A DNA stretch of 40,271 nucleotides from assembly GCF_011008565.1 (NCBI RefSeq), contig NZ_JAAIWK010000032.1, forward strand, positions 1 through 40,271, read 5' to 3'. Each line of letters opens with the position of its first letter. The stretch's first letter is position 1. The notes beneath the pieces are model-generated. The model searched no databases. It was not told the origin of the DNA and saw only the letters and a program-made list of their open reading frames with translations. The DNA comes from Heyndrickxia ginsengihumi (lineage in GTDB: Bacteria; Bacillota; Bacilli; Bacillales; Bacillaceae_C). The translations under genes were made by a program, and so were the position numbers. Shown one piece after another: positions 6,553 to 36,184 of this stretch.

Positions 6553-7353
6553 ATGAGCAATTCATGGCTTGATTTAGAAGGAAAAGTTGCCATTGTTACA
6601 GGTGGCGCTTCTGGAATCGGTTTAACGATTACGAGGGAGCTGCTTAAAAATGGTGTAAAAGTAGTTGTTTCAGATTTAAATGTTGAGGAAGGACATCAAG
6701 AGGATGGTCCCTATTTTATTAAATGTAATGTTGCAAACAAAGAAAGCGTTGACAATATGGTGGCAAAAACAGTTGAATTATTTGGCTCTGTAGATATTTT
6801 AGTAAATAATGCGGGTGTGAATCTCCCTAGATTGTTAGTAGATGTTGCGGGAGAAAAGCCTGAATACGAGCTGAGCGAGCAAGATTTTGATTTCATGGTC
6901 AATGTTAACCAAAAGGGCCCATTCCTTTGCGCTCAAGCAGTCGCTAAAGAAATGGTAAAACGCAATAGCGGAGTGATTATTAATATGGCTTCAGAGACTG
7001 GTCAAGAAGGATCCGCTGGTCAAAGCTGTTATTCTGCAACAAAGGGAGCACTTATTGCTTTCACTAGGGCATGGGCAAAGGAATTGGGAAAATACAATAT
7101 TCGTGTAGTAGCATTGGCCCCTGGAATTTTAGAAAAAACCGGATTGAGAACAGATGCATACAACGAGGCACTCGCATATACTCGTGGAGTTACAGTAGAT
7201 GGGTTAGCGACTGATTATAGTAAATCCATTCCTCTAGGAAGAGAAGGAAATTTGAATGAAGTTGCCGATCTTGTTTCTTATCTTGCTTCAGACCGTGCAA
7301 GCTATATTACCGGTACGACACTTAATATTTCGGGTGGTAAATCTCGCGGTTAA
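6553..7353 (+). CDS. srlD: Sorbitol-6-phosphate 2-dehydrogenase (SDR)
   Basis: Oxidises sorbitol 6-phosphate, the product of the glucitol PTS, to fructose 6-phosphate with NAD+. The 266-residue protein is a classical SDR: TGGASGIG (residues 16-23), NNAG (85-88), Ser147, Tyr160 and Lys164, and the C-terminal GTTLNISGGKSRG typical of firmicute sorbitol-6-phosphate dehydrogenases. The ATG is preceded by GAGGGGGAAC. It is the first gene behind the cre-controlled promoter. A gap of 142 nt separates it from the regulator gene; no terminator is visible in the gap, so the operon probably reads through. The identification rests on the protein and on the glucitol PTS genes downstream. Confidence 0.9.
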   Translation: MSNSWLDLEGKVAIVTGGASGIGLTITRELLKNGVKVVVSDLNVEEGHQEDGPYFIKCNVANKESVDNMVAKTVELFGSVDILVNNAGVNLPRLLVDVAGEKPEYELSEQDFDFMVNVNQKGPFLCAQAVAKEMVKRNSGVIINMASETGQEGSAGQSCYSATKGALIAFTRAWAKELGKYNIRVVALAPGILEKTGLRTDAYNEALAYTRGVTVDGLATDYSKSIPLGREGNLNEVADLVSYLASDRASYITGTTLNISGGKSRG

Positions 7354-13636: not shown

Positions 13637-15067
13637 TTAAACTTCATGACTCACAGTCTTTGACCACTCGCCGATAAATTCTGCTTCATTATAGTTAAAG
13701 AAATCTTGTAACTTTTCATTCTTTTGATCGTGAAAGAGTTCATCTGCAACTGCTGCAACAAGTTTTGGTATACCTTGTTTCATACCAGACAAAGCAGAAG
13801 CTGAAAGTCCGCAACTAATTAAAGCTGAATAATTAAAGGCAAAAATTCCATGAAGCATTTTCTTACCTTTTTCATCGCGGCTTAAAAAAGCAAAACCAGG
13901 ACTTAAATAAGGATGTTCATCAATCACAGGGTTTTCTATTTTTTCAGGAGGATTATAGCAGTCTCCCCAGCGAGCAATATGTTTTTCAACGAGCTTCAGT
14001 TCCGGACGTAATGCTGGATCAGTAACGAGTCCAGTGCTAATAATCAAGAAATCAAAATCGAAAATGCCTTGCGGTGTAGTTACAGCTACTCCATTATTTA
14101 AAGCTTTAACATCGAGCCAAGGGGCACCTAAGTGCAAGTTAAAGCCAGGCCATGAAGAAGCACGTAGGAATGTATCATTTGTCGGTGGTTGGTTATGGTT
14201 AAAGAAATGAGACATGACCGCATATTTTTCTGCATCCGAAAGTACATGAAAATGTTCAATCATGCCGGAAACTTCCATTTGACGAATTGGATTGACTTGC
14301 GGTAATTTTTTACGACGAACAAAGACGTGCGTCTCTGCGGCTCCTTCAGAAAGGGCAACATTTGCATTATCAAAGGCGGACGCACCTCCTCCTAAAACGG
14401 CAAGCCTCTTTCCTTTTAGTGCTTTAAAATTAATCGCTTCAGACGTATGGGCATAGAGATGTGCTGGCAATTTTTTGCGAATCATTGGTGGAACATGCCA
14501 TTCGCCGCCGCCTTGAATCCCGGTGGCAAGAATAACTTTTCGGGTTAATATTTCGTTTGTTGGTGCCCCTGTCCCTCCGATATGCAATCGATGGATTCCA
14601 TCCTCTGTAGGTTCGATAAGGTTTAGTTTCACCTCGTTGATAACGGGAAGATTTAATATTTTTCGATACCAGCGTAAGTAGTTCATCCAGTCCCCGCGTG
14701 GAATCTTATCGATCGCTTCCCAGCTTTCTGTCCCAAATTGGGCTTCCCACCATGAACGAAAAGTAAGAGATGGAATACCAAGATCAAGTGGGGTTAAATG
14801 TTTCGGTGTTCTTAATGTCACCATTCGTGCATATGTCTCCCAAGGTCCCTCTAATCCTTCCCGGTTTTCATCAATAACGAGAATGTTTGGTATACGTTCA
14901 CGCAACAAACCAAATGCAGCGCCTAAACCACTTTGGCCGCCACCAACGATTACAACATCGAAAACATGTCCATCAGAATGGACAGTTGGCTGCACCCAAT
15001 CAGGTCCACCAAAGCCAAGATAGGAAAGATCTGTTTTCACTTGTTTATTTAATGCTTCTAAACTCAT
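13637..15067 (-). CDS. FAD-dependent oxidoreductase, flavin monooxygenase (BVMO/FMO)-like
   Basis: A 476-residue two-dinucleotide-binding-domain flavoprotein. The FAD site is VVIVGGGQSGLGAA (about residues 38-51) and the NAD(P)H site is LAVLGGGASAFDNA (about 223-236). It resembles flavin-containing and Baeyer-Villiger monooxygenases, which oxygenate ketones, amines or sulfur compounds. The BVMO fingerprint FxGxxxHxxxWP is not evident, so the exact reaction is open. The longest frame starts at 15097. I prefer the ATG at 15067 because AAAGGA lies 9 nt before it. It is a single-gene unit converging on the sorbitol operon. Confidence 0.8.
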   Translation of the reverse strand: MSLEALNKQVKTDLSYLGFGGPDWVQPTVHSDGHVFDVVIVGGGQSGLGAAFGLLRERIPNILVIDENREGLEGPWETYARMVTLRTPKHLTPLDLGIPSLTFRSWWEAQFGTESWEAIDKIPRGDWMNYLRWYRKILNLPVINEVKLNLIEPTEDGIHRLHIGGTGAPTNEILTRKVILATGIQGGGEWHVPPMIRKKLPAHLYAHTSEAINFKALKGKRLAVLGGGASAFDNANVALSEGAAETHVFVRRKKLPQVNPIRQMEVSGMIEHFHVLSDAEKYAVMSHFFNHNQPPTNDTFLRASSWPGFNLHLGAPWLDVKALNNGVAVTTPQGIFDFDFLIISTGLVTDPALRPELKLVEKHIARWGDCYNPPEKIENPVIDEHPYLSPGFAFLSRDEKGKKMLHGIFAFNYSALISCGLSASALSGMKQGIPKLVAAVADELFHDQKNEKLQDFFNYNEAEFIGEWSKTVSHEV

Positions 15068-18291: not shown

Positions 18292-18666
18292 CTAGAATTG
18301 ATCCGATGATGTTCTAGCACTCTGATTTTTTAACAGAATGGTTCCTTTAACAACTATTTTATGTTGACACGTCCCTCTAAGTTTCATGTGTGCGCCTACT
18401 TTCTGTAGATAAATCGTAACTTGATCTCCTGCATAAACAGGGGAGATAAATGATAGGTCGAATTGATCAGGCCATTGAAATAAGGACAATTCGCTTGAAA
18501 TAGCACTCCATATTTTAGCCATCGTCAACATCCCATGAGCAATCTTGTCAGAAAACCCATATTGCTGTGCATATTTTTGGCTAAGATGAATCTGATTGTA
18601 ATCACCAGACAAGCTTGCATAAACTTCTATATCCTGCTCAGTAACTTGAAATTTAATGATCTTCAA
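18292..18666 (-). CDS. MaoC-type (R)-specific hydratase, catalytic subunit
   Basis: A 124-residue single hot-dog-fold protein. The hydratase motif is YASLSGDYNQIH, with catalytic Asp22 and His27, followed by AHGML. Such proteins hydrate trans-2-enoyl thioesters or dehydrate (3R)-hydroxyacyl thioesters. I place the start at the TTG at 18666, which has AGGTG 6 nt before it and overlaps the previous gene by 14 nt; a TTG at 18681 is possible. The upstream neighbour encodes the matching non-catalytic subunit, so the two probably form a heterodimer like mycobacterial HadA-HadB. It is the last gene of the BirA-type operon. Confidence 0.82.
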   Translation of the reverse strand: MKIIKFQVTEQDIEVYASLSGDYNQIHLSQKYAQQYGFSDKIAHGMLTMAKIWSAISSELSLFQWPDQFDLSFISPVYAGDQVTIYLQKVGAHMKLRGTCQHKIVVKGTILLKNQSARTSSDQF

Positions 18667-22406: not shown

Positions 22407-22650
22407 TTGTAGTCAGTAAAAAATACAGTTCATTAAAAAATCGAGCATTACAAGTTCTGTTTTTTAAGAAGGAAAGATTGCATTCGTTGAGAAATGATTT
22501 TTAAAATTTGTTACAAGCAATTGAGGATTAAAATTGAAGTTAAAAATGTTATTGAAGGGGTATGATAATATTATTAGAGTACATTGAAAAATGTTTTACG
22601 AAGAAAAACAAAAAAGGTGAATGTAAGATCGAGATAAGGATGTGGAGAGC

Positions 22651-24192
22651 GTGTCAGAGACAGATATGTCGAAATACGAGAAGAAAATCATTGTAAGGAA
22701 TATCCGGATGGAAGACATAGATGAAATTATGAAGCTATGGAAACGCTGTTTTCCAGGAATGGAGCCGTGGAAGCGGGAACAGTTAGAAAGTCATATTCGT
22801 ATTTTTCAGGAAGGGCAATTCTGTGTGGAGTATGAGGATAAAATTGTTGGTTCCTGTTCAAGTTTAATCGTCAACTTTGATGAATACGATGACCAACATA
22901 CATGGAATACCATTACAGATAACGGATATATTACAAATCATGATCCTCATGGATTTAATCTATATGGTATTGAAGTAATGGTTGATCCTGAATATCGCCG
23001 CATGAAAATTGGACACCGTCTGTACGAAGCGCGAAAGGAGCTCGCACGTCAATTAAATCTTCAAAGTATTATTATTGGTGGCCGCATACCAAATTACTAT
23101 AAATATAAGGATAAAATGACGCCGCGTGAGTATGTGGCAGAGGTTGAAAAACATAGCATATATGATCCTGTATTGTCCTTTCAACTTTTAGAAGGATTTA
23201 AAATTAAACGTATTAATAGCCGTTACCTTCCGGATGACGTCGCATCTGCTTCATTTGCGACTTTGATGGAGTGGAACAATATTGATTATCTTCCAAAGTC
23301 ACGACGTGTTTATCGGGCATCATTTCCAGTACGAATTTGTGCAATACAGTACATGATGAAGAAAATTGATTCATTTGAGGATTTTACTAAGCAAATTGAA
23401 TATTATGTAGATGTTGCAGCCGACTTCGGTTCAGATTTTGCTGTTTTTCCAGAAATTTTTACGACTCAGTTGATGTCATATCTAGAAGAAAAACGGCCAG
23501 ATCGTGCTGTTCGCCGATTAGCCGAATATACTGATCAATACATCGAATTGTTTACAGAACTTGCAGTAAGATATAACGTCAATATTATTGGTGGATCACA
23601 TTTTGTTGAAGAAGATGGAGATATTTATAATGTTGGCTATCTATTTCGCCGAGACGGTACAATCGAGACACAGACGAAGCTTCATGTAACACCTAATGAG
23701 CGCAAATGGTGGGGGATTGCGGAAGGAAATGAAATTAATGTATTTGATACGGATTGTGGTAAAATTGCCATTCAAATTTGTTATGACATTGAGTTCCCGG
23801 AACTCGCGCGCATTGCAGTAGATAACGGGGCAAATATTATTTTTGTTCCGTTTTGTACAGATGATCGTCAAGGATATCTCCGTGTTCGATATTGTGCGCA
23901 GGCACGGGCGATTGAAAATCAAGTATATACTTGTATTGCAGGTACTGTTGGAAACTTAACACATGTAGAAAACATGGATATTCAGTATGCACAATCCGGT
24001 ATTTTCTCACCTTCAGACTTTGGATTTGCAAGGGATGGAATTGTTGGGGAGTGTGATGCCAATGTTGATACGGTGGTTGTCGGTGACGTCGATCTTGAAA
24101 AATTGAGACGTCATCGTAATAGCGGTTCCGTACGACAATTGCGAGATCGCAGAAGAGATTTATACAGGATTGAATTTAACGAATCCAACTAA
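22651..24192 (+). CDS. yhcX: GNAT acetyltransferase fused to a nitrilase-family amidohydrolase (YhcX-like)
   Basis: A two-domain protein. The N-terminal GNAT domain (about 15-200) has VDPEYRRMKIGHRLYEARKE, the acetyl-CoA-binding loop. The C-terminal carbon-nitrogen hydrolase domain (about 225-500) has the catalytic triad Glu268 (FPEIFTTQ), Lys343 (TKLHVTPNE) and Cys377 (IQICYDIEFPE). The frame begins at a GTG at 22642. I prefer the GTG at 22651, which gives 513 residues and a start MSETDMSKYEKK like the one I recall for B. subtilis YhcX. The fused domains suggest removal or transfer of an amide and acetyl group on a small molecule; the substrate is unknown to me. It is a single-gene unit. Confidence 0.88.
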   Translation: MSETDMSKYEKKIIVRNIRMEDIDEIMKLWKRCFPGMEPWKREQLESHIRIFQEGQFCVEYEDKIVGSCSSLIVNFDEYDDQHTWNTITDNGYITNHDPHGFNLYGIEVMVDPEYRRMKIGHRLYEARKELARQLNLQSIIIGGRIPNYYKYKDKMTPREYVAEVEKHSIYDPVLSFQLLEGFKIKRINSRYLPDDVASASFATLMEWNNIDYLPKSRRVYRASFPVRICAIQYMMKKIDSFEDFTKQIEYYVDVAADFGSDFAVFPEIFTTQLMSYLEEKRPDRAVRRLAEYTDQYIELFTELAVRYNVNIIGGSHFVEEDGDIYNVGYLFRRDGTIETQTKLHVTPNERKWWGIAEGNEINVFDTDCGKIAIQICYDIEFPELARIAVDNGANIIFVPFCTDDRQGYLRVRYCAQARAIENQVYTCIAGTVGNLTHVENMDIQYAQSGIFSPSDFGFARDGIVGECDANVDTVVVGDVDLEKLRRHRNSGSVRQLRDRRRDLYRIEFNESN

Positions 24193-26836: not shown

Positions 26837-26853
26837 GTTCTTCATAGTGGAAC
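26837..26853. promoter_or_regulatory. IclR-type site at the iclR promoter
   Basis: The minus strand reads GTTCCACTATGAAGAAC, a near palindrome related to the two other sites. The minus-strand -10 box TATAAT is at 26869-26864, so the site covers about +4 to +20 of the iclR transcript and would fit autorepression. Confidence 0.6.
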
Positions 26854-26863
26854 ATCTTTATCC

Positions 26864-26869
26864 ATTATA
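26864..26869 (-). promoter_or_regulatory. -10 box of iclR
   Basis: TATAAT on the minus strand, 44 nt before the ATG; the -35 region is poor. Confidence 0.45.
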
Positions 26870-26964
26870 TTAATTGATTTGAATGCCGATGTATAGCGTT
26901 TTGTAATCGCTATCTTTTGTTAAATTGTAATGTTACTGAAAATATATAAAAAATTTTTTGAACT

Positions 26965-26981
26965 GTTCCGTATATAGGAAC
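26965..26981. promoter_or_regulatory. IclR-type operator of the meta-cleavage operon
   Basis: GTTCCGTATATAGGAAC, a palindrome with 5-bp arms, preceded by TTTGAA. The TATAAT box (27012-27017) begins exactly 30 nt after it. The same arrangement precedes the dioxygenase gene. Confidence 0.7.
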
Positions 26982-27011
26982 GATACGCTATGAATGAAAA
27001 AAAGCGGTTTA

Positions 27012-27017
27012 TATAAT
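27012..27017 (+). promoter_or_regulatory. -10 box of the meta-cleavage operon
   Basis: TATAAT with a poor -35 (TATGAA at 26989-26994, 17-nt spacer), as expected for an activator-dependent promoter. Confidence 0.6.
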
Positions 27018-27086
27018 AAGGAGCAAGAGGAAAAAATCTTCTGAAAAAAAGATCATTGCTGAGTAAATCCTAAAGGAGGCACTATT

Positions 27087-28547
27087 ATGCTTGCAACAGA
27101 AACGAAAGTTAAACCAATTGATTGTTATCATTATATTGATGGTCAATATGTTCCTTCAAAAAATGGCAAAACATTTGAAAATGTAAACCCAGCAACAGAA
27201 GAAGTATTAGGAGTTGTTTCTGAAGGTGGAAAAGAGGAAGTTGATTTAGCTATAAAAGCGGCAAGAAAAGCAATTAAAGGTGAATGGCGAAAAATGCCTT
27301 TAAGAAAACGTTCGGCTATTTTACGTAAAATTGGCGATTTGATTCTGGAAAGAAAAGACGAATTGGCGATGCTCGAAACACTTGATACAGGTAAACCATT
27401 GTGGCTGTCGACAAACGTTGATATTGATCGCGCCGCATACAATTTCCATTTCTTTGCGGATTACATGATTTCGGTGGGGAATGAAGCCTATCAGCAAGAT
27501 GATATTGCTATTCATTATTCCGTTAGTCGTCCAGTCGGGGTTGTTGGCCTTATCAATCCGTGGAATTTACCTTTATTACTTATGACTTGGAAATTAGCGC
27601 CCGCACTTGCAGCTGGTAACACAGTTGTGATGAAACCTTCTGAAGTAACCCCAATGACAGCAACTGTATTAGCGCAAATCTGTACAGATGCAGGAGTGCC
27701 TGACGGCGTTGTCAACATGGTCCATGGATTTGGAGAAACAGGTGCAGCAATTACTTCACATCCGGATGTAGATGCAATTGCTTTTACAGGTGAAACTGTA
27801 ACGGGCAGTGCGATTATGAAAGCTGCGGCACCAACATTAAAAAAATTGTCTTTTGAACTAGGCGGAAAAAATCCGAATATTATTTTTGCTGATGCAAATA
27901 TGGAGGATGTAATCGAAACGACATTGCGTTCTAGTTTTATGAACCAAGGTGAGGTTTGCTTATGCGGTTCAAGAATTTATGTAGAACGTTCAATCTACAA
28001 TGAATTCCTCGAAAAATTTGTTGCCAAAACAAAAGAATTGAAGGTTGGCGATCCACTTGATCCAAATACAAATGTTGGTGCATTAGTAAGTAAAGAACAT
28101 TATAACAAAGTCTTAAGTTATTTAGAACTTGCCCCACAGGAAGGCGGAACTTTCTTAACTGGCGGCAAGCCTCTCGAAGGATCAGAGAAAGGATATTTTG
28201 TTGAACCGACGATCATTACTGGACTGGGCAGAAATTCGCGGTGTGTGCGTGAAGAAATTTTTGGGCCTGTTGTAACCGTCCTTCCTTTTGATACAGAGGA
28301 AGAAGTGCTTGAACAAGTTAATGATACTCATTATGGTTTAAGCGCTTCACTTTGGACGGGTGACCTCAAACGCGCTCACCGAGTTGCAGGACAAATCGAA
28401 GCGGGGATGATTTGGATCAATACTTGGTTCTTGCGGGACTTGCGGACGCCGTTTGGCGGAATGAAACATAGTGGTATTGGACGTGAAGGCGGAGCCCATA
28501 GTTTTGATTTTTACACTGAGCTATCGAACATTACGATAAAGCTATAG
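27087..28547 (+). CDS. dmpC: 2-hydroxymuconic semialdehyde dehydrogenase
   Basis: An NAD+-dependent aldehyde dehydrogenase of 486 residues that oxidises the ring-cleavage product of catechol to 2-hydroxymuconate. Catalytic Cys291 (NQGEVCLCGSR), Glu257 (FELGGKNPNI) and the NPWNLPL segment with Asn160 are present. The NQGEVCLCGSR context is typical of the 2-hydroxymuconic/2-aminomuconic semialdehyde group. The companion genes for 4-oxalocrotonate tautomerase and decarboxylase favour the hydroxymuconic substrate. It is the first gene of a six-gene operon; the ATG has AAAGGAGG upstream. Confidence 0.92.
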   Translation: MLATETKVKPIDCYHYIDGQYVPSKNGKTFENVNPATEEVLGVVSEGGKEEVDLAIKAARKAIKGEWRKMPLRKRSAILRKIGDLILERKDELAMLETLDTGKPLWLSTNVDIDRAAYNFHFFADYMISVGNEAYQQDDIAIHYSVSRPVGVVGLINPWNLPLLLMTWKLAPALAAGNTVVMKPSEVTPMTATVLAQICTDAGVPDGVVNMVHGFGETGAAITSHPDVDAIAFTGETVTGSAIMKAAAPTLKKLSFELGGKNPNIIFADANMEDVIETTLRSSFMNQGEVCLCGSRIYVERSIYNEFLEKFVAKTKELKVGDPLDPNTNVGALVSKEHYNKVLSYLELAPQEGGTFLTGGKPLEGSEKGYFVEPTIITGLGRNSRCVREEIFGPVVTVLPFDTEEEVLEQVNDTHYGLSASLWTGDLKRAHRVAGQIEAGMIWINTWFLRDLRTPFGGMKHSGIGREGGAHSFDFYTELSNITIKL

Positions 28548-28560
28548 GAGGTATGCCTAA

Positions 28561-29355
28561 GTGAAAATTGAATACACAGGCAAAACGGAAAGTCTTGCGA
28601 AACATTTAGCAAATGCTTGGTATTTAGAAGAAGGCGTGGAACCAGTAACAGCATTGTATCCTGATCTCTCCGTGGATGAAGCATATCAAGTACAGCTATA
28701 TAAGGTTGAACAGTTAATAAAGGAAGGTCAACAAGTGACAGGGAAAAAAATTGGCCTAACATCAAAAGCAATGCAGGAAATGCTTGGAGTTGCTGAACCG
28801 GATTACGGTCACCTGCTTGATCAAATGAACATTGTTAATGGAGGAACCGTTTCATATAAACGTGTTTTACAGCCAAAAGTAGAAGCCGAAATCGCCTTTA
28901 TTTTAAAAAGGGATTTAATTGGCCCGAATGTAACGACATTTGATGTCCTGCTTGCGACGGATGCAATTGTCCCAGCACTTGAAATTGTAGACAGCCGGAT
29001 AAAGAACTGGAATATTACGTTAGCCGATACTGTTGCAGACAATGCTTCTTCCGGTTTATACGTTCTCGGTAAACACTCGAAAAAGATTACCGAAGTAGAT
29101 CTTAAACAAATTGGAATGGCGCTTTACCAAAATGACGTTTTGCAAAATACAGGTGTAGGGGCTGCGGCATTAGGAGATCCGGCGAAATGTGTAGCATGGT
29201 TAGCGAATAAACTTTCAGCTTATGGCATTGCTCTAAAAGCGGGGGAAGTGATTTTATCAGGGGCATTATCGGCTGCTATTGAAGCAAAACCTGGTGACCA
29301 TTTTTATGCGAAATTTGCCGGCTTAGGCGATGTAGAGGTTTCATTTACAGAATAA
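28561..29355 (+). CDS. dmpE: 2-oxopent-4-enoate hydratase (2-keto-4-pentenoate hydratase)
   Basis: Adds water to 2-oxopent-4-enoate to give 4-hydroxy-2-oxovalerate. The 264-residue protein has the family's metal-binding acids Glu108 and Glu110 ([11 protein letters not shown]) and Glu141 (EIVDSRI). It is a paralogue of the decarboxylase gene at 31407; the two were assigned by details such as [17 protein letters not shown] here against GPKMGITSEAKMRQM there, so a swap is possible but less likely. The start is a GTG with AGGAGG 9 nt upstream. In DmpE/DmpH-type systems the two enzymes form a complex. Confidence 0.85.
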
Positions 29356-29366
29356 AAGAAGGAGGG

Positions 29367-30254
29367 ATGATGATGAAAAAAGTAAAAGTCGGCATTATTG
29401 GTACTGGTAATATCGGTTCAGATTTAATGATGAAATTAAGACGTTCTGATGTGCTTGAATTAACAACAATGATGGGAATTGACCCAACTTCAAGAGGAAT
29501 GCAGCGCGCCAAGAGAGATGGCTTGCAAGTGTTTGATAATGGTGTGGATGGTTTGCTTGAGTATCCGGAATTGGTTGATATTCTTTTCGATGCGACAAGT
29601 GCAAAAGCCCATCTTCATAATGCGTCAGTAGCGAAGCAGCTTGGAAAACAAATGCTTGATTTAACACCTGCAGCCATTGGTCCATTCGTCGCACCGACTG
29701 TGAATATCGATTCCCATTTAGATGCTGAAAATGTCAATTTAATTACTTGCGGTGGTCAGGCAACGATTCCGATTGTCCATGCTATTAATGAAGTAGCAGC
29801 TGTTGAATATGCCGAAATTGTGGCGACTATTTCTAGTAAAAGTGCTGGTCCGGGAACAAGAGCAAATATTGATGAGTTCACAGAAACGACTGCAAAAGCA
29901 ATTGAGCAGGTCGGAGGTGCAAGGAAAGGAAAAGCGATTATCGTTCTTAATCCAGCAGATCCTCCGATTATGATGAGGGATACCGTCTATACAATTGTTG
30001 AAGATGGAAAAATGGATCGAAAAGCGATCATCGCTTCTATTGAGAGTATGGTGAAAAAAGTTCAGTCATTTGTTCCAGGTTATAAGCTTCGGACAGAACC
30101 GATTTTTGACGGCAATAAGATTACTGTGTTTCTTGAAGTTGAAGGCGCTGGCGACTATTTGCCTAAATATGCAGGCAATCTTGATATTATGACTTCTGCT
30201 GCAGTAAAGGTTGCTGAAGAGTTTGCCAAAAACCGTTTAAAATCGATTGTTTAA
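29367..30254 (+). CDS. dmpF: Acetaldehyde dehydrogenase (acylating)
   Basis: Converts acetaldehyde with NAD+ and CoA to acetyl-CoA, the last step of the pathway. The 295-residue protein has [13 protein letters not shown] (NAD binding), the nucleophile Cys128 in [11 protein letters not shown] and the conserved [20 protein letters not shown]. Three ATG codons stand in a row at 29367, 29370 and 29373; with GGAGGG directly before the first, the third (29373) has the best spacing. It should work in a channelled complex with the aldolase encoded next. Confidence 0.95.
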
Positions 30255-30289
30255 AAACTTAGATATTGAGTTAAGGAAGGAGGAGTAAC

Positions 30290-31333
30290 ATGACATTCGA
30301 AAAAGAAATTAAAATCACAGAAGTAGCTTTACGGGATGGAAGTCATGCCGTCAGCCACCAATACACAGTTGAACAGGTAACAACGATTGCAAAAGCACTT
30401 AATGAGGCAAGGATTCCTTACATTGAAGTCACCCATGGTGATGGACTTGGCGGTTCCTCATTACAATATGGTTTATCGAAAACGGATGAAATGAAATTAA
30501 TCGAAGCCGCTGTTGCGGTTAGTGACTTTTCAAAGATTGCTGTCTTATTGCTTCCGGGAATCGGTACGATTGAAGATTTAAAACAAGCCGCCAAAATCGG
30601 GGCAAAAATGGCGAGAATTGCGACACATGTGACTGAAGCAGATATTGCAAAGCAGCATATTGAAACTGCTAAAGATTTAGGAATGGAAACAGTCGGATTT
30701 TTGATGATGAGTCATATGGCTCCGGTCGAAAAAATTGTGGAACAGGCGAAGCTAATGGAAAGCTATGGAGCAGACACGGTCTACATTGTTGATTCCGCAG
30801 GTGCCTTACTGCCGGATCAAGTGCGGGCGAGAATTAAAGCTATTAGACAAGCTATCTCAATCAATGTCGGGTTTCATGCTCATAATAATTTGTCGCTTGC
30901 AATGGGAAATACGCTCGCTGCAATTGAGGAAGGAGCGACAAGAATAGATGGGAGTATTCGCTGTTTAGGTGCAGGAGCAGGAAATACGCAAACAGAGGTT
31001 TTAGTTGCTGTTCTCGATAGAATGGGGATCCAAACAGGAATTGATCTTTATAAGTTAATGGATGTATCTGAAGATGTGGTTTCACAAATATTACAGAAGC
31101 CGCAGATTATTAATCGGGATAGCTTAACGTTAGGATATGCCGGCGTCTATTCTAGCTTTCTATTGCATGCAAAACGTGCTGCTGAAAAATTTTCAGTAGA
31201 TTCACGGGATATTTTAATAGAGCTTGGCAAAAGAAAAATCGTCGGCGGCCAAGAGGACATGATCGTAGACGTTGCAGCAGAACTTTCTAAAAAGAAAAGC
31301 GGAAGCGCCTGCCCATCGACGTACACAACTTAA
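30290..31333 (+). CDS. dmpG: 4-hydroxy-2-oxovalerate aldolase
   Basis: Cleaves 4-hydroxy-2-oxovalerate to pyruvate and acetaldehyde. The 347-residue protein has Arg15-Asp16 (ALRDGSHA), His19 and the metal ligands His196 and His198 (GFHAHNNLSLA). Partner of the acetaldehyde dehydrogenase before it. The last 12 codons (from about residue 336, KSGSACPSTYTT) are encoded by a dispersed repeat, so the natural C-terminus appears to have been replaced; the catalytic core is intact. The ATG has AAGGAGGAG upstream. Confidence 0.93.
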   Translation: MTFEKEIKITEVALRDGSHAVSHQYTVEQVTTIAKALNEARIPYIEVTHGDGLGGSSLQYGLSKTDEMKLIEAAVAVSDFSKIAVLLLPGIGTIEDLKQAAKIGAKMARIATHVTEADIAKQHIETAKDLGMETVGFLMMSHMAPVEKIVEQAKLMESYGADTVYIVDSAGALLPDQVRARIKAIRQAISINVGFHAHNNLSLAMGNTLAAIEEGATRIDGSIRCLGAGAGNTQTEVLVAVLDRMGIQTGIDLYKLMDVSEDVVSQILQKPQIINRDSLTLGYAGVYSSFLLHAKRAAEKFSVDSRDILIELGKRKIVGGQEDMIVDVAAELSKKKSGSACPSTYTT

Positions 31334-31373
31334 GGAACTCCGACTGAGATAAAGGAAACACGGTAAGCCAGTA
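31295..31373. repeat. Partial dispersed Bacillus repeat overlapping the 3' end of the aldolase gene
   Basis: It begins with AAAAGCGGAAGCGCCTG (31295-31311) and contains CATCGACGTACACAACTT, CTCCGACTGAGATAAAGG and AAACACGG. I remember this order as the left half of a long hairpin repeat common in Bacillus-like genomes. The right half is missing. It supplies the stop codon of the aldolase gene and most of the gap to the decarboxylase gene. Confidence 0.6.
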
Positions 31374-31406
31374 TAAGAACATTAGAAGTTCTCTAGGAGG
31401 AAGGTC

Positions 31407-32195
31407 ATGGATAGTAACCAAATTAAAGAACTTGCTTCATATGTTCATCATGCAGAAAAGGAAAAATGTGAAGTTGAAAAAATTACCGCCCATTTATATC
31501 CGGGCCTTACTATTGAAGAAGCGTATTATGTTCAAGAAGAACTCATTAGGCAGAAATTAGAAGAAGGCTTTAACATAATAGGACCGAAAATGGGCATTAC
31601 AAGTGAAGCGAAAATGAGGCAAATGAATGTAAATGATCCGATTTACGGATATGTATTTGACTATATGGTTATAAATGACGGAGATTCCATTTCTTTAGCG
31701 AATTACATTCATCCAAAAGTTGAACCAGAAATTGGTTTTATTTTAGAGAAGGATTTGGAAGGTCCGGAAGTAACAGCACTGGATGTTTTACAAGCAACTG
31801 CTTATGTATTCCCAGCAATTGAGATTATCGATAGCCGTTATGAGAATTTTAATTTTACCTTGCCTGATGTAATTGCCGACAATACCTCGGCAAGAGGGGC
31901 TGTGTTTGGAACATATTTGCGAAAACCTGATGAACTAGAATTGGACGTTGTAGGGGTCACTTTATCGATTAATGGCGAAATACGATCTTTAGGTGCTGGA
32001 GCAGCTGTCCTTGGTCATCCTGCTAATTCAGTCGCTAGACTTGCCAATATGTTAAGTAGGAAAGGTGAAAAACTAAAAGCCGGTCAGCCCATTTTAACGG
32101 GCGGAATTACAGAAGCAATCAGGCTGGCAGCTGGAGATTTTGTCACAGCAAAATTAGGGGGACTAGGGGATGTTTCGTTTTTTGTAAAAGAATAA
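31407..32195 (+). CDS. dmpH: 4-oxalocrotonate decarboxylase (2-oxo-3-hexenedioate decarboxylase)
   Basis: Decarboxylates 2-oxo-3-hexenedioate to 2-oxopent-4-enoate. The 262-residue protein shares the hydratase fold, with Glu106 and Glu108 (PKVEPEIGFIL), Glu139 (EIIDSRY) and Lys61 in GPKMGITSEAKM, the form typical of the decarboxylase branch. The gap of 73 nt to the aldolase gene is made of repeat DNA. The ATG has CTAGGAGGAAG upstream. The tautomerase follows after 15 nt. Confidence 0.87.
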   Translation: MDSNQIKELASYVHHAEKEKCEVEKITAHLYPGLTIEEAYYVQEELIRQKLEEGFNIIGPKMGITSEAKMRQMNVNDPIYGYVFDYMVINDGDSISLANYIHPKVEPEIGFILEKDLEGPEVTALDVLQATAYVFPAIEIIDSRYENFNFTLPDVIADNTSARGAVFGTYLRKPDELELDVVGVTLSINGEIRSLGAGAAVLGHPANSVARLANMLSRKGEKLKAGQPILTGGITEAIRLAAGDFVTAKLGGLGDVSFFVKE

Positions 32196-32210
32196 AAGGA
32201 GGGAATAAAC

Positions 32211-32402
32211 TTGCCGTTTGTTCATATCGAAATTATGGAAGGCAGACCGCCGGAGAAAATAGAAGCATTGTTGAAAAATGTAACTGAAGCTGTCAGTAAG
32301 TCACTGGATGCTCCAAAGGAAAATGTACGAATCATCGTAAATGAAGTACCTAAAACCCATTGGGCTATCGGTGGTGTTAGTGCTAAAACATTAGGGAGAT
32401 AA
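32211..32402 (+). CDS. dmpI: 4-oxalocrotonate tautomerase
   Basis: Converts 2-hydroxymuconate to 2-oxo-3-hexenedioate. A 62-residue mature protein after loss of the start Met. The catalytic base Pro1, Arg11 (MEGRPPEK) and Arg39 (NVRIIV) are present, and Trp50 (KTHWAIGG) replaces the Phe50 of well-known members. The start codon is TTG with AAGGAGGG upstream. It is the last gene of the operon; a GC-rich hairpin follows. Confidence 0.93.
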   Translation: MPFVHIEIMEGRPPEKIEALLKNVTEAVSKSLDAPKENVRIIVNEVPKTHWAIGGVSAKTLGR

Positions 32403-32410
32403 TGAAAATT

Positions 32411-32429
32411 GGAGGGGGCCGCCCCTTCC
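32411..32429 (+). terminator. GC-rich hairpin after the tautomerase gene
   Basis: GGAGGGGG pairs with CCCCTTCC (one G-T) around a 3-nt loop, followed by a mixed C/T tract with TTTTT. Probably an incomplete terminator for the first catechol transcript. Confidence 0.6.
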
Positions 32430-32502
32430 CATTATTCCTCTTTTTCTTGAAAATATCATAGAAAAATAGATTAATCAAAAAATATAGAAAAAACTTTGAA
32501 AC

Positions 32503-32519
32503 GTTGCACATAGAGGAAC
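32503..32519. promoter_or_regulatory. IclR-type operator of the catechol dioxygenase gene
   Basis: GTTGCACATAGAGGAAC, preceded by TTTGAA at the same offset as in the operon site (26957). A TATAAT box begins exactly 30 nt after it. Confidence 0.7.
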
Positions 32520-32549
32520 AACTAGCTTTTGAATTGTTTTAGTCACTCA

Positions 32550-32555
32550 TATAAT
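32550..32555 (+). promoter_or_regulatory. -10 box of the catechol dioxygenase gene
   Basis: TATAAT with a weak -35 (TTTTGA at 32527-32532, 17-nt spacer). The transcript would begin near 32562. Confidence 0.6.
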
Positions 32556-32680: not shown

Positions 32681-33658
32681 ATGGAAAATGAATTAAAAAA
32701 ATTTGATGTTGCCCAATTAGCTCATGTAGAAATTTTCACTCCGGATCCTGACAAAACTTTATGGTTTTTTAAAGATTTATTAGGAATGATAGAAACGGAT
32801 AGAGAGGGACAGTCCGTTTACTTAAAAGCCTATGAAGATTTTTATCATCATACGTTGAAAGTGACTGAAGGCAAAGAAGCCGGTTTAGGTCATGTTGGTT
32901 GGCGGACTAGTTCAAAAAATGCGTTAGATCGTCGCGTTAAAGATCTTGAAAAGTCTGGATATGGAAAAGGCTGGATAGATGGCGACCTAGGTCATGGTGC
33001 GGCGTATCAATTTGTCACACCAGATGGTCATCCGATGGAAATACTATGGGATGTAGACTACTATCAAGTCCCAGAAAATGAAAAAACACAATTAAAGAAT
33101 CGTCCTCAAAAACGTCCAATTAAAGGAGTTCCTGTTCGCCGCATCGACCATGTGAACTTATTAGCCAGTGATGTAACAACAAATAAAAATTTTATGATGG
33201 ATGAACTAGGCTTCAATTTAAGAGAACATCTTGTTAATAATGATGGTTCAGAAGGTGGAGCTTGGTTAAGTGTTAGCCCATTAGTACATGAACTAGCATT
33301 TATGGGCGATCAATTGGGAGGTAAAGGCAGACTTCATCATGTTTGTTATTGGTATGGATATCCACAACATCTCCATGATCTTTCCGAAATTTTAACAGAA
33401 AATGATATAAAAATTGAAGCAGGTCCTGTTAAACACGGAGTATCACAAGCAATGTGTTTATATGCGATTGAGCCTGGCGGTAACCGTGTTGAATTATTCG
33501 GAGATTCTGGTTATCTCATTTTTGATCCTGATTGGAAACCTGTTACATGGAGAGAAGAAGAGGTAGATAAGGCAATCATTTGGTATGGCGCACCTCTTCC
33601 ATATGAATACTTCCGCTATGGAACTCCAATTATTAAAGAAAAAGTTGAAACAAAATAA
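32681..33658 (+). CDS. dmpB: Catechol 2,3-dioxygenase (extradiol, vicinal oxygen chelate family)
   Basis: Cleaves catechol beside its hydroxyl groups to 2-hydroxymuconic semialdehyde, using Fe(II) and O2. The 325-residue protein has two VOC modules. The C-terminal one carries the iron ligands His157 (RRIDHVNLL), His220 ([11 protein letters not shown]) and Glu271 (GGNRVELFG). His203, His252 and Tyr261 match catalytic residues of XylE, going from memory. The length matches thermophilic Bacillus PheB enzymes. It has its own promoter with IclR-type and cre sites. The ATG has TAGGAGGAG upstream. Confidence 0.93.
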
Positions 33659-34027: not shown

Positions 34028-35296
34028 CTACTCTTCCAGTAGTTGAGTAACTTGATGGCTGTTTACTTGTTGCTTAACTTTTTTAATTGGGGCTGTTTCA
34101 ATTAAACCGATGGCGATAAAAGCAGCTATGAAGGATCCGATGCTTGCGATCCAAAGCGGGGCTGTTAAACCGATATGATCTGCTAATATACCAGCAATCA
34201 GGGGCATCAGTGCTCCGCCAACAAGCTCGCCTCCTCCTTGGACCATGCCGCCAACTGAAGCTGCTAATCTAGCAGGAACCGATTCACTGATTATGATGAA
34301 TCCTAAAAGTGGCATGCAGCCTTGACCAACTGCGGTTATAAAACCGATTAACACCATTATTGCAATCGAGGCATGGATGAATAAAAAGACAATTGGACAG
34401 AGGCAGGCAATAAAAGAAAAAATAATTAATGTTGGTTTACGTCCCAATTTATCAGATATCATTGGTACAAGAAATCCCCAAAAGAAGGAACCAAGTCCGA
34501 CCGCAGCCATAATGATGCCCATATCTCCAGCAGAATAATGATCGGCTTCTACTAAATACGTAGGAGCAAAAGCTGTAAATACAAATAACCACGTATTAAA
34601 AAGGGCAAACATAATTAATGATAATCCTACATTTCGATGCTTAAATCCATTTGCGTAGTCTGAAAAAGAAGTTCTTTTTTTCGGTGTTTGATCATTAGTT
34701 GAATGTAGTGAAACGAAGGAAGGTTCTTTTAAATACTTCCATAGTAGAAAAGCCATGAGGAGTCCGGGAATTGCTACCACATAAAAAGCGACATGCCAAT
34801 TTGAGGTTCCACTTATTTTTGTAACTACTATAGGTGTAAGTGCAGCCCCTATCAAACCGACTGCGCTTTGAGCTAACCCCATATTAAATCCGCGACGGTC
34901 CGGACTTGATTCATAAGATAATATTGCTTGACCTAAGGGCAGTACCGGCCCCTCAAACAGTCCCATAATCGATCTGACAAATAATAGAAGGATAAATGAA
35001 GAGACTACACCAGTAAAAATTGAACACAACGAAAAAACAACTGTGGAAAGAACAAGAATTTTTTTTCTTTTACCGCCAACATCTCCAATGCTGCTAAAAA
35101 GCCAACCTGATATTGCAAAACAAATAGCGAGAACGGATGTTATCAATCCAAGTTGGGCATTATTGAGATTTAGATCTTCTTTAATAAAGGGAAACAAAAA
35201 TGTGATGCTTAAACGATCCATAAATACAAAACCAATTGTGAAAAATATCATAAGTACAAGACCGTTTTGATATGTTCTAAATTTTCGCTCATGCAT
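34028..35296 (-). CDS. MFS transporter, unknown substrate
   Basis: A 422-residue major facilitator with about 12 membrane helices. The loop motif between helices 2 and 3 reads GDVGGKRKK, the central loop (about 195-220) is hydrophilic, and SDKLGRKP repeats the motif in the second half. It resembles anion/organic acid MFS carriers. Placed next to the catechol genes and converging on them, it could import an aromatic acid, but this is only a guess: no IclR-type site was found upstream. A partial cre-like sequence lies 165 nt upstream. The ATG has TTGGAGTG upstream. Confidence 0.85.
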   Translation of the reverse strand: MHERKFRTYQNGLVLMIFFTIGFVFMDRLSITFLFPFIKEDLNLNNAQLGLITSVLAICFAISGWLFSSIGDVGGKRKKILVLSTVVFSLCSIFTGVVSSFILLLFVRSIMGLFEGPVLPLGQAILSYESSPDRRGFNMGLAQSAVGLIGAALTPIVVTKISGTSNWHVAFYVVAIPGLLMAFLLWKYLKEPSFVSLHSTNDQTPKKRTSFSDYANGFKHRNVGLSLIMFALFNTWLFVFTAFAPTYLVEADHYSAGDMGIIMAAVGLGSFFWGFLVPMISDKLGRKPTLIIFSFIACLCPIVFLFIHASIAIMVLIGFITAVGQGCMPLLGFIIISESVPARLAASVGGMVQGGGELVGGALMPLIAGILADHIGLTAPLWIASIGSFIAAFIAIGLIETAPIKKVKQQVNSHQVTQLLEE

Positions 35297-35460
35297 TTGG
35301 GATCACTCCAATTTTATGATTAATATTTTTTACTTCATTTTTAGGGACTAATAATTTATTCAGAGAACAATTAATGAAAGAGTATATTGTTGCTTGCATT
35401 AGCCCTTTGTAGAAAATCTAACCTCAATTCGCTTTGGTCCATAGAAAATCGGTTAAGAAA

Positions 35461-35474
35461 ATCAAGCGCTTTCA
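35461..35474 (-). promoter_or_regulatory. Partial cre-like site upstream of MFS gene
   Basis: The minus strand reads TGAAAGCGCTTGAT; the first 11 positions fit the CcpA consensus and the last three do not. It is about 165 nt from the start codon. Confidence 0.3.
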
Positions 35475-36184
35475 TTTCTTGCTGTGCTTACTATCTACAC
35501 GAAATGCTTTGCTTCACTTTTTATTCACTTTATGACATGGTTTGGCTTTAAATAAATAAACTGCATTTTAAATATAAGGAACTTTTTATAGAAGACTATC
35601 TAATTGGATTGGAATCAACCCCTTTTTTCACTTACTTATCCATTTTTTCCGTAGTATTTCTTCTAAAACTTGAATATTGACTGAAACATCGTTTACCCAC
35701 CACCTCCAGGTAAATAAAGTAAAAATTAAACTATTATATAAAGACTATAAAAAATAGTCTCAATAACTGATTTGCTGGTAAGAATGAGGGATGCAGTTGC
35801 TGCTAAAGGTCTCAATAGCTTAGTTGCGATGTCATATATCGTTCGGAGGAATGAACATATTTGTCTTTGAATTTGTATAATCAGACATATTAGTAGGAGT
35901 GTTTATTTATCTGCTATTAATTTAAAAAATATTTATCGTTAGTGTATTCAAACTCGCGAAACGATACAATGCTGTAATTCCTTTATGTGGAACAGCATTC
36001 ATTTTTGCTTACATTCATGTTTATCATCATTGGAAACACAGGTCGCATTCGAGTAAATTGACAGAGCTATTGGGGCCGTAAAAGCTCTCCAAGAAGCAAT
36101 AGAGGAAATACGATATGAAGTATGTAGCCTTTAAATTAAATACAAGATTTTAGATGATACTATCGAGATTTAAACGATATAAAG

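Follow-up and report, generated by a model that had tools for sequence, protein, structure and literature searches.

We found that a 17-bp palindrome, occurring near catechol meta-cleavage genes in Heyndrickxia ginsengihumi, is placed 30 nt from the -10 box at three predicted promoters, and that this fixed spacing is a conserved rule. The window that we analysed is the whole contig NZ_JAAIWK010000032.1 (40,271 nt), which makes up approximately 1.1% of the 3.74-Mb genome. It contains a gene for an IclR-family regulator (iclR), a predicted lower meta-cleavage operon, a catechol 2,3-dioxygenase (C23O) gene and a gene for an MFS transporter. Four copies of the palindrome, here called operators 1 to 4 (Table 1), behave as predicted operators of the adjacent regulator, supporting a small regulon over the meta-cleavage genes. 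Both the regulator and the operator type are already known, and it is the rigid spacing that is the notable part.

The initial annotation of this DNA had described three sites as an IclR regulon over the catechol pathway. These sites (operators 1 to 3) are indeed present, and there is also a fourth on the minus strand that faces the MFS gene. As the annotation had stated, TATAAT follows operators 1 and 2 after exactly 30 nt in each case, and both promoters have poor -35 boxes; a scan for consensus promoters reported neither of them. It had also pointed to a TTTGAA that ends 2 nt 5' of operators 1 and 2. This sequence does occur at an equal offset in both, but we rejected it as a third box and excluded it from the element because, among 36 promoter sites, it was found at that offset only in two, both in the window. 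A second operator over the -35 position was likewise rejected for the window, where the best scores are negative at all three catabolic promoters. Nevertheless, a half site beginning with GTT at offset d = 6 overlaps the -35 position in many relatives (among them L091, L095, L096 and L122), for example as GTTGTATATGCAAC in L096.

Sites were scored with a matrix built from 35 unique sites of relatives, from which the window was left out and which knew nothing of the -10 box. Besides the window, the 60 sequences scanned for spacing comprised 39 regions and 5 named loci surrounding iclR homologues, along with 15 shorter loci, some of which overlap the regions. A promoter site had to score at least 16 and to be followed on its own strand, within 1500 nt, by one of the tested pathway genes. 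The 52 such sites precede genes for aldehyde dehydrogenase (44), C23O (4), MFS transporters (2), a hydratase (1) and a tautomerase (1). TAnnnT lies at exactly 30 nt in 46 of them, in 31 of 36 once sites at least 75% alike are removed, and in 28 of 33 without the window. By contrast, 5000 rotations gave a mean of 1.4 at one offset and at most 6. Of the five exceptions, one is a match within a coding gene and the others have TAnnnT at 31 nt. The -35 positions of the pooled sites match TTGACA at a mean of 2.7 of 6 nucleotides, with 3 of 31 reaching 4 of 6. Of 28 other non-redundant sites, which no tested pathway gene follows and some of which are close to iclR, 15 have the 30-nt distance and the next offset accounts for 4.

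Equal spacing in two places had been judged hard to explain by chance, and searches of the window and the genome agree. The matrix ranks the four operators first to fourth in the window, whereas the best score in 200 dinucleotide shuffles of the whole window had a mean of 12.7 and a maximum of 19.3. Operator 3 is unexceptional alone, given 0.55 matches of at least 13 per shuffle, and it is supported because of its position and its counterparts in relatives, not because of its score. We searched the genome with the relaxed consensus GTTCCGYATAGAGGAAC, allowing up to 3 mismatches and using the reversed pattern as a control. There were 15 matches versus 13 in the control; therefore, most single matches are due to chance. 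Four of the 15 are inside the window (Poisson 2.5e-5), and the two matches in the genome with at most 2 mismatches are operators 1 and 2. Five of the 11 matches outside the window were examined as regulon members (L167-L171). Three score at least 15, two of these being inside open reading frames (ORFs), and none of the five was accepted, as none has TAnnnT at 30 nt. The composite GTTCCRYATANAGGAAC-N30-TATAAT, also with up to 3 mismatches, has three matches in the genome, all of which are in the window (operators 1, 2 and 4), while the reversed control has 0.

The palindrome also accompanies iclR in relatives. Searches of whole genomes supplied the iclR homologues: at 1e-60, 3 of the 34 genomes of the family gave a homologue, and at 1e-70 this was true of 24 of 397 genomes of the order and 35 of 398 of the class. 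Each count includes the H. ginsengihumi genome, one genome (G179) is in two of them, and five named Bacillus species were added. With the window excluded, there were 64 iclR upstream regions, of which 59 are non-redundant. GTTCC-N7-GGAAC occurs with at least 9 of 10 matching positions in 30 of the 59, while spacers of 3-6 and 8-11 give 0 and a spacer of 12 gives 1. Lowering the requirement to at least 8 of 10 raises the number of regions for N7 to 50 of 59, versus 6 to 19 for other spacers. Random 480-nt stretches reach these two levels in 3.9% and 20.5% of cases, respectively. Using the matrix, in-sample and with the window included, 33 of 56 non-redundant upstream regions have a proximal site scoring at least 12, and 49 have either this or a distal site scoring at least 15; the proximal and distal thresholds are reached by 0.7% and 1.5% of random stretches. 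Three of the seven regions with neither site are just below threshold (L090 and L108 at 11.9, L118 at 14.8). The distance from the iclR-proximal site to TAnnnT is loose across relatives.

These results argue that the product of the window's iclR gene is probably the owner of the sites, as the palindrome stays in front of iclR homologues in loci whose divergent gene is a different one (L084, L098 and L111). In addition, residue 43 of the recognition helix covaries with positions 4 and 14 of the site: C at position 14 occurs in 6 of 9 versus 0 of 26 (p 5e-5), and a nucleotide other than C at position 4 in 9 of 9 versus 8 of 26 (p 3e-4), but these p-values overstate the evidence because the N43 rows need one change on the tree. 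This covariation is therefore only suggestive of ownership, and the single change counts against it.

In the window, the iclR-proximal site is operator 3, which directly precedes the ribosome-binding region of iclR. It begins 10 nt past a TATAAT (26869-26864 on the iclR strand) and so would span approximately +4 to +20 of the predicted transcript, in agreement with the initial annotation, which had put it on the first bases of the transcript. Between operators 3 and 1 there is an inverted repeat, ATAGCGTTT/AATCGCTAT (26893-26913), whose TATAGCG resembles the operator core and which may be a further weak site.

The initial annotation had proposed a scan of related genomes. The palindrome was found near iclR in many of them and precedes an orthologous aldehyde dehydrogenase gene in many loci; its presence before C23O-like and MFS genes, however, extends to few. 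In L089, a C23O-like gene lies behind a site at 14315 that has TATAAT at 30 nt, and L084 and L085 have the same arrangement before a C23O-like gene that is the divergent partner of iclR. These three genes are 39-40% identical to the window's C23O and just under the model cut-off. In L119, an operator at 18468 is followed by TATTGT at 30 nt and then by an MFS homologue (50% identical). Other sites precede 4-hydroxybenzoate 3-monooxygenase genes in L117 and L111 (in the latter at 7125, with TAGACT at 30 nt) and a Rieske oxygenase gene in L100. L111 also has a LigB-type dioxygenase gene, which, like its monooxygenase gene, is beside the same lower pathway, and loci of this kind look like pra operons.

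Across the 397 genomes of the order, the composite has 11 matches with at most 1 mismatch, two of which are in the window. The nine others precede genes for aldehyde dehydrogenase (2), C23O-like proteins (2), AMP-ligases (2), an MFS transporter (1) and an FAD monooxygenase (1), with nothing recognisable behind the ninth, in G342. The matches in G148 and G305 are also inside a mechanically predicted ORF, and a search at 1e-70 gave no iclR homologue in G148 or G342. G334 has a site with 2 mismatches, and another C23O-like gene begins 334 nt downstream of it. Operators at L084:2792, L090:7939, L092:16629 and L094:6631 likewise have TAnnnT at 30 nt, and the genes behind them look, by eye, like those for solute-binding proteins of uptake systems.

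We consider it probable that the four operators form one IclR regulon, with activation at the catabolic promoters and autorepression of iclR. We infer these signs of regulation, as well as binding by this protein, the start sites and the effector, as follows. The regulator would control the lower meta-cleavage operon through operator 1, C23O through operator 2, the MFS gene through operator 4 and itself through operator 3. If transcription starts 7 nt past the -10 box, a dimer at the three catabolic promoters would bind approximately from -59 to -43, centred near -51, and leave the core promoter free. Positioned just upstream of a non-consensus -35 box and always 30 bp from the -10 box, it could contact RNA polymerase and activate transcription in the presence of an aromatic effector, presumably a substrate or a ring-cleavage product. 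An activator is expected because the core promoter is free, the -35 box is far from consensus and unrelated genes share the same rigid distance, and a constant distance such as that found here is what a fixed-geometry activator should show. At operator 3, the regulator would cover the first transcribed bases of iclR and thereby limit its own synthesis; steric autorepression is suggested by this position together with the loose spacing.

Several observations weigh against this regulon or its activation. T is present at d = 7 in 31 of 31 pooled sites, and TTG at the same place in 15 of 31, which could mean that the -35 box works. A site scoring at least 16 lies directly before the C23O-like gene in only 3 of 15 loci having such a gene (L084, L085 and L089). 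Where C23O is more similar to that of the window, the site in L093 (C23O 78% identical) scores 15.5 and has TATAAT at 29 nt, and the scan of L104 (70%) gave no site of at least 14. In L098 (63%), a site scoring 16.1, with TATTCT at 30 nt, is two genes upstream, before a gene of the peptidase S15 type, behind which come C23O and, closely thereafter, an MFS homologue (56%). The MFS start is 681 nt away from operator 4, whose -10 box matches at 4 of 6 positions only. When up to 3 mismatches are allowed, the 397 genomes yield 100 composite matches, in 76 genomes, versus approximately 68 in the control, so most are due to chance. Finally, many aromatic-metabolism genes are underrepresented for the operator subgroup discussed below, according to PMC8222616.

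The same operators and owner could instead serve a repressor that is released by an inducer, with the fixed spacing reflecting a defined repressor-polymerase complex or blocked upstream contacts. We regard this as unlikely, although it is the best of the alternatives. PraR of Paenibacillus sp. JJ-1b, reportedly of the IclR type and presumably the closest relative that has been studied, is probably the equivalent of the regulator in loci such as L111, and Kasai's abstract of 2009 is said to propose that PraR represses its operon, which would speak against activation. L111-type loci share the operator and the spacing, and GTT covers the -35 position in many relatives. However, the window's catabolic operators end at -43 with no second site on the -35 box, and such weak -35 boxes leave little to repress. 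Moreover, steric repressors tolerate loose spacing, whereas the spacing here is rigid across unrelated targets.

The GTT half site over the -35 box in many relatives might permit dual control, in which the promoter is held off without effector and activated with it. Both roles are known in the IclR family, and PMC8222616 describes three-box and tandem sites. The window's own promoters lack such a half site, and we therefore think a dual regulator improbable here.

It is very doubtful that a different regulator in the cell owns the sites. Ownership is deduced from sequence, and a loose first search listed 18 candidate iclR relatives in the genome; however, only the window's own gene passes 1e-60, and the palindrome stays upstream of and close to iclR despite the change of divergent gene. 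Chance or compositional similarity, suggested by the single matches that are as common as in the reversed control, is scarcely credible in view of the composite search, the held-out matrix ranking, the spacing rotations, the shuffles and the preference for a spacer of 7.

Similar operators have been described. In PMC8222616, IclR group 1 operators include a GTT-11-AAC subgroup (GTTYCRYW3RYGRAAC) that is overrepresented in Firmicutes. This class has the same 17-bp length and outer letters as the window's operators, so that these are a new instance of a known operator kind. GTT-N11-AAC is found in operators 1, 2 and 3, while operator 4 ends in AAT. As for the inner letters, operator 1 fits the left half and W3 and does not fit positions 11-12, and operator 2 has G at position 4; the class has RY at positions 11-12, where the operators here mostly have GA. 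The same source states that IclR regulators generally act on their own gene and on one or two neighbouring operons, and it describes IclR regulons with meta-cleavage genes. It measures site positions from the translation start, and its available part contains no statement of a fixed distance between operator and -10 box. In literature titles and abstract openings, neither this operator nor its spacing was described for Bacilli, although this does not prove absence from print.

GenR of Corynebacterium glutamicum serves the gentisate pathway, whereas the window's regulator adjoins catechol meta-cleavage genes. The activating site of GenR is reportedly centred near -41, compared with -51 here. 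The GenR motif, ATTCC-N7(5)-GGAAT, is similar to the operators, and GenR both activates and represses gen genes, according to a title cited in PMC8222616. PraR regulates the protocatechuate 2,3-cleavage pathway (praRABEGFDCHI), which proceeds via 2-hydroxymuconate semialdehyde (PMC12455638). Its ring-cleavage entry differs from the catechol 2,3-dioxygenase here. A regulator gene beside a lower meta-cleavage operon, as in PraR-type systems, is present in the window and in relatives, although the window's ring-cleavage gene is a separate unit.

The iclR product belongs to the IclR family by its HTH_IclR (46.5 bits, cut-off 22) and IclR_C (159.8 bits, cut-off 24) domains. Its best NCBIfam match is TIGR02431 (PcaR/PcaU/PobR), also a group of aromatic catabolism, but the score of 177.3 bits is under the cut-off of 284.75, and it is not assigned to this subfamily. 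The PcaU and Pseudomonas PcaR motifs have TCGAT..ATCG cores (PMC8222616, Table 1), unlike the window's operators.

Table 1. Predicted operators, promoter elements and genes of the catechol region
Feature	Position	Strand	Details
Operator 1, GTTCCGTATATAGGAAC	26965-26981	+	5' of aldehyde dehydrogenase operon; matrix score 24.8; 0 mismatches to composite
-35 position, operator 1 promoter, TATGAA	26989-26994	+	2/6 match to TTGACA; 17-nt spacer
-10 box, operator 1 promoter, TATAAT	27012-27017	+	exactly 30 nt past operator 1
Operator 2, GTTGCACATAGAGGAAC	32503-32519	+	5' of C23O; matrix score 26.6; 1 mismatch to composite
-35 position, operator 2 promoter, TTTTGA	32527-32532	+	3/6 match to TTGACA; 17-nt spacer
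-10 box, operator 2 promoter, TATAAT	32550-32555	+	exactly 30 nt past operator 2
Operator 3, iclR-proximal, GTTCTTCATAGTGGAAC on +	26837-26853	.	matrix score 13.3 on +, 8.4 on -
Predicted -10 box of iclR, TATAAT	26864-26869	-	10 nt upstream of operator 3
Operator 4, GTTCCACATAAAGGAAT	35993-35977	-	faces MFS gene; matrix score 20.4; 3 mismatches to composite
-35 position, operator 4 promoter, TTGTAT	35964-35969	-	3/6 match
-10-like box, operator 4 promoter, TACACT	35941-35946	-	4/6 match; 30 nt past operator 4
iclR, IclR-family regulator, 262 aa	26031-26819	-	Pfam IclR_C 6e-47, HTH_IclR 3e-12
2-hydroxymuconic semialdehyde dehydrogenase-like gene	27087-28547	+	TIGR03216 651.5 bits, below cut-off 693.25
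2-oxopent-4-enoate hydratase-like gene	28561-29355	+	TIGR03220 305.9 bits, below cut-off 408.8
Acetaldehyde dehydrogenase (acetylating)	29367-30254	+	TIGR03215 460.3 bits, above cut-off
4-hydroxy-2-oxovalerate aldolase	30290-31333	+	TIGR03217 537.6 bits, above cut-off
2-oxo-3-hexenedioate decarboxylase-like gene	31407-32195	+	TIGR03218 294.7 bits, below cut-off 350.55
4-oxalocrotonate tautomerase	32211-32402	+	NF002524 100 bits, above cut-off 86
Terminator-like hairpin after first operon	32411-32429	+	15 such sites in scanned stretch vs 7.7 expected
Catechol 2,3-dioxygenase (C23O)	32681-33658	+	TIGR03211 353.4 bits, above cut-off 320.2
MFS transporter	34028-35296	-	MFS_1 1e-49; start 681 nt from operator 4

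By these model matches, the operon behind operator 1 is the lower meta-cleavage pathway, with six genes, and the terminator-like hairpin separates it from the C23O unit. Operator 4 and the MFS gene are separated by 680 nt (35297-35976) that contain no ORF longer than 54 aa and may be a long leader or what is left of a lost gene; when compared with the collected loci by tblastx and blastn, this stretch matched own-genome copies of itself only (L080 and L126). A second C23O-like gene in the genome (C13:44699-45625, L012) is 43% identical to the first, and the composite search of the genome gave no element near it. Elsewhere in the window, the gene at 22642-24192 fuses a GNAT acetyltransferase domain to a carbon-nitrogen hydrolase domain.

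For H. ginsengihumi, operator 4 adds a transporter to the predicted catechol regulon. More generally, we think it likely that this branch of IclR regulators in Bacilli uses one rigid promoter code, in which a 17-bp operator stands 30 (rarely 31) bp from the -10 box, with a non-consensus -35 box, in front of any gene. If so, ring dioxygenases, hydroxylases, ligases and transporters would join an aromatic regulon by gaining a single module, and regulons could be read from sequence. The operator-N30-TAnnnT rule would then predict targets of IclR-type aromatic regulators in poorly studied Bacilli, and the question of whether PraR-like proteins are activators or repressors would be reduced to a simple spacing experiment.

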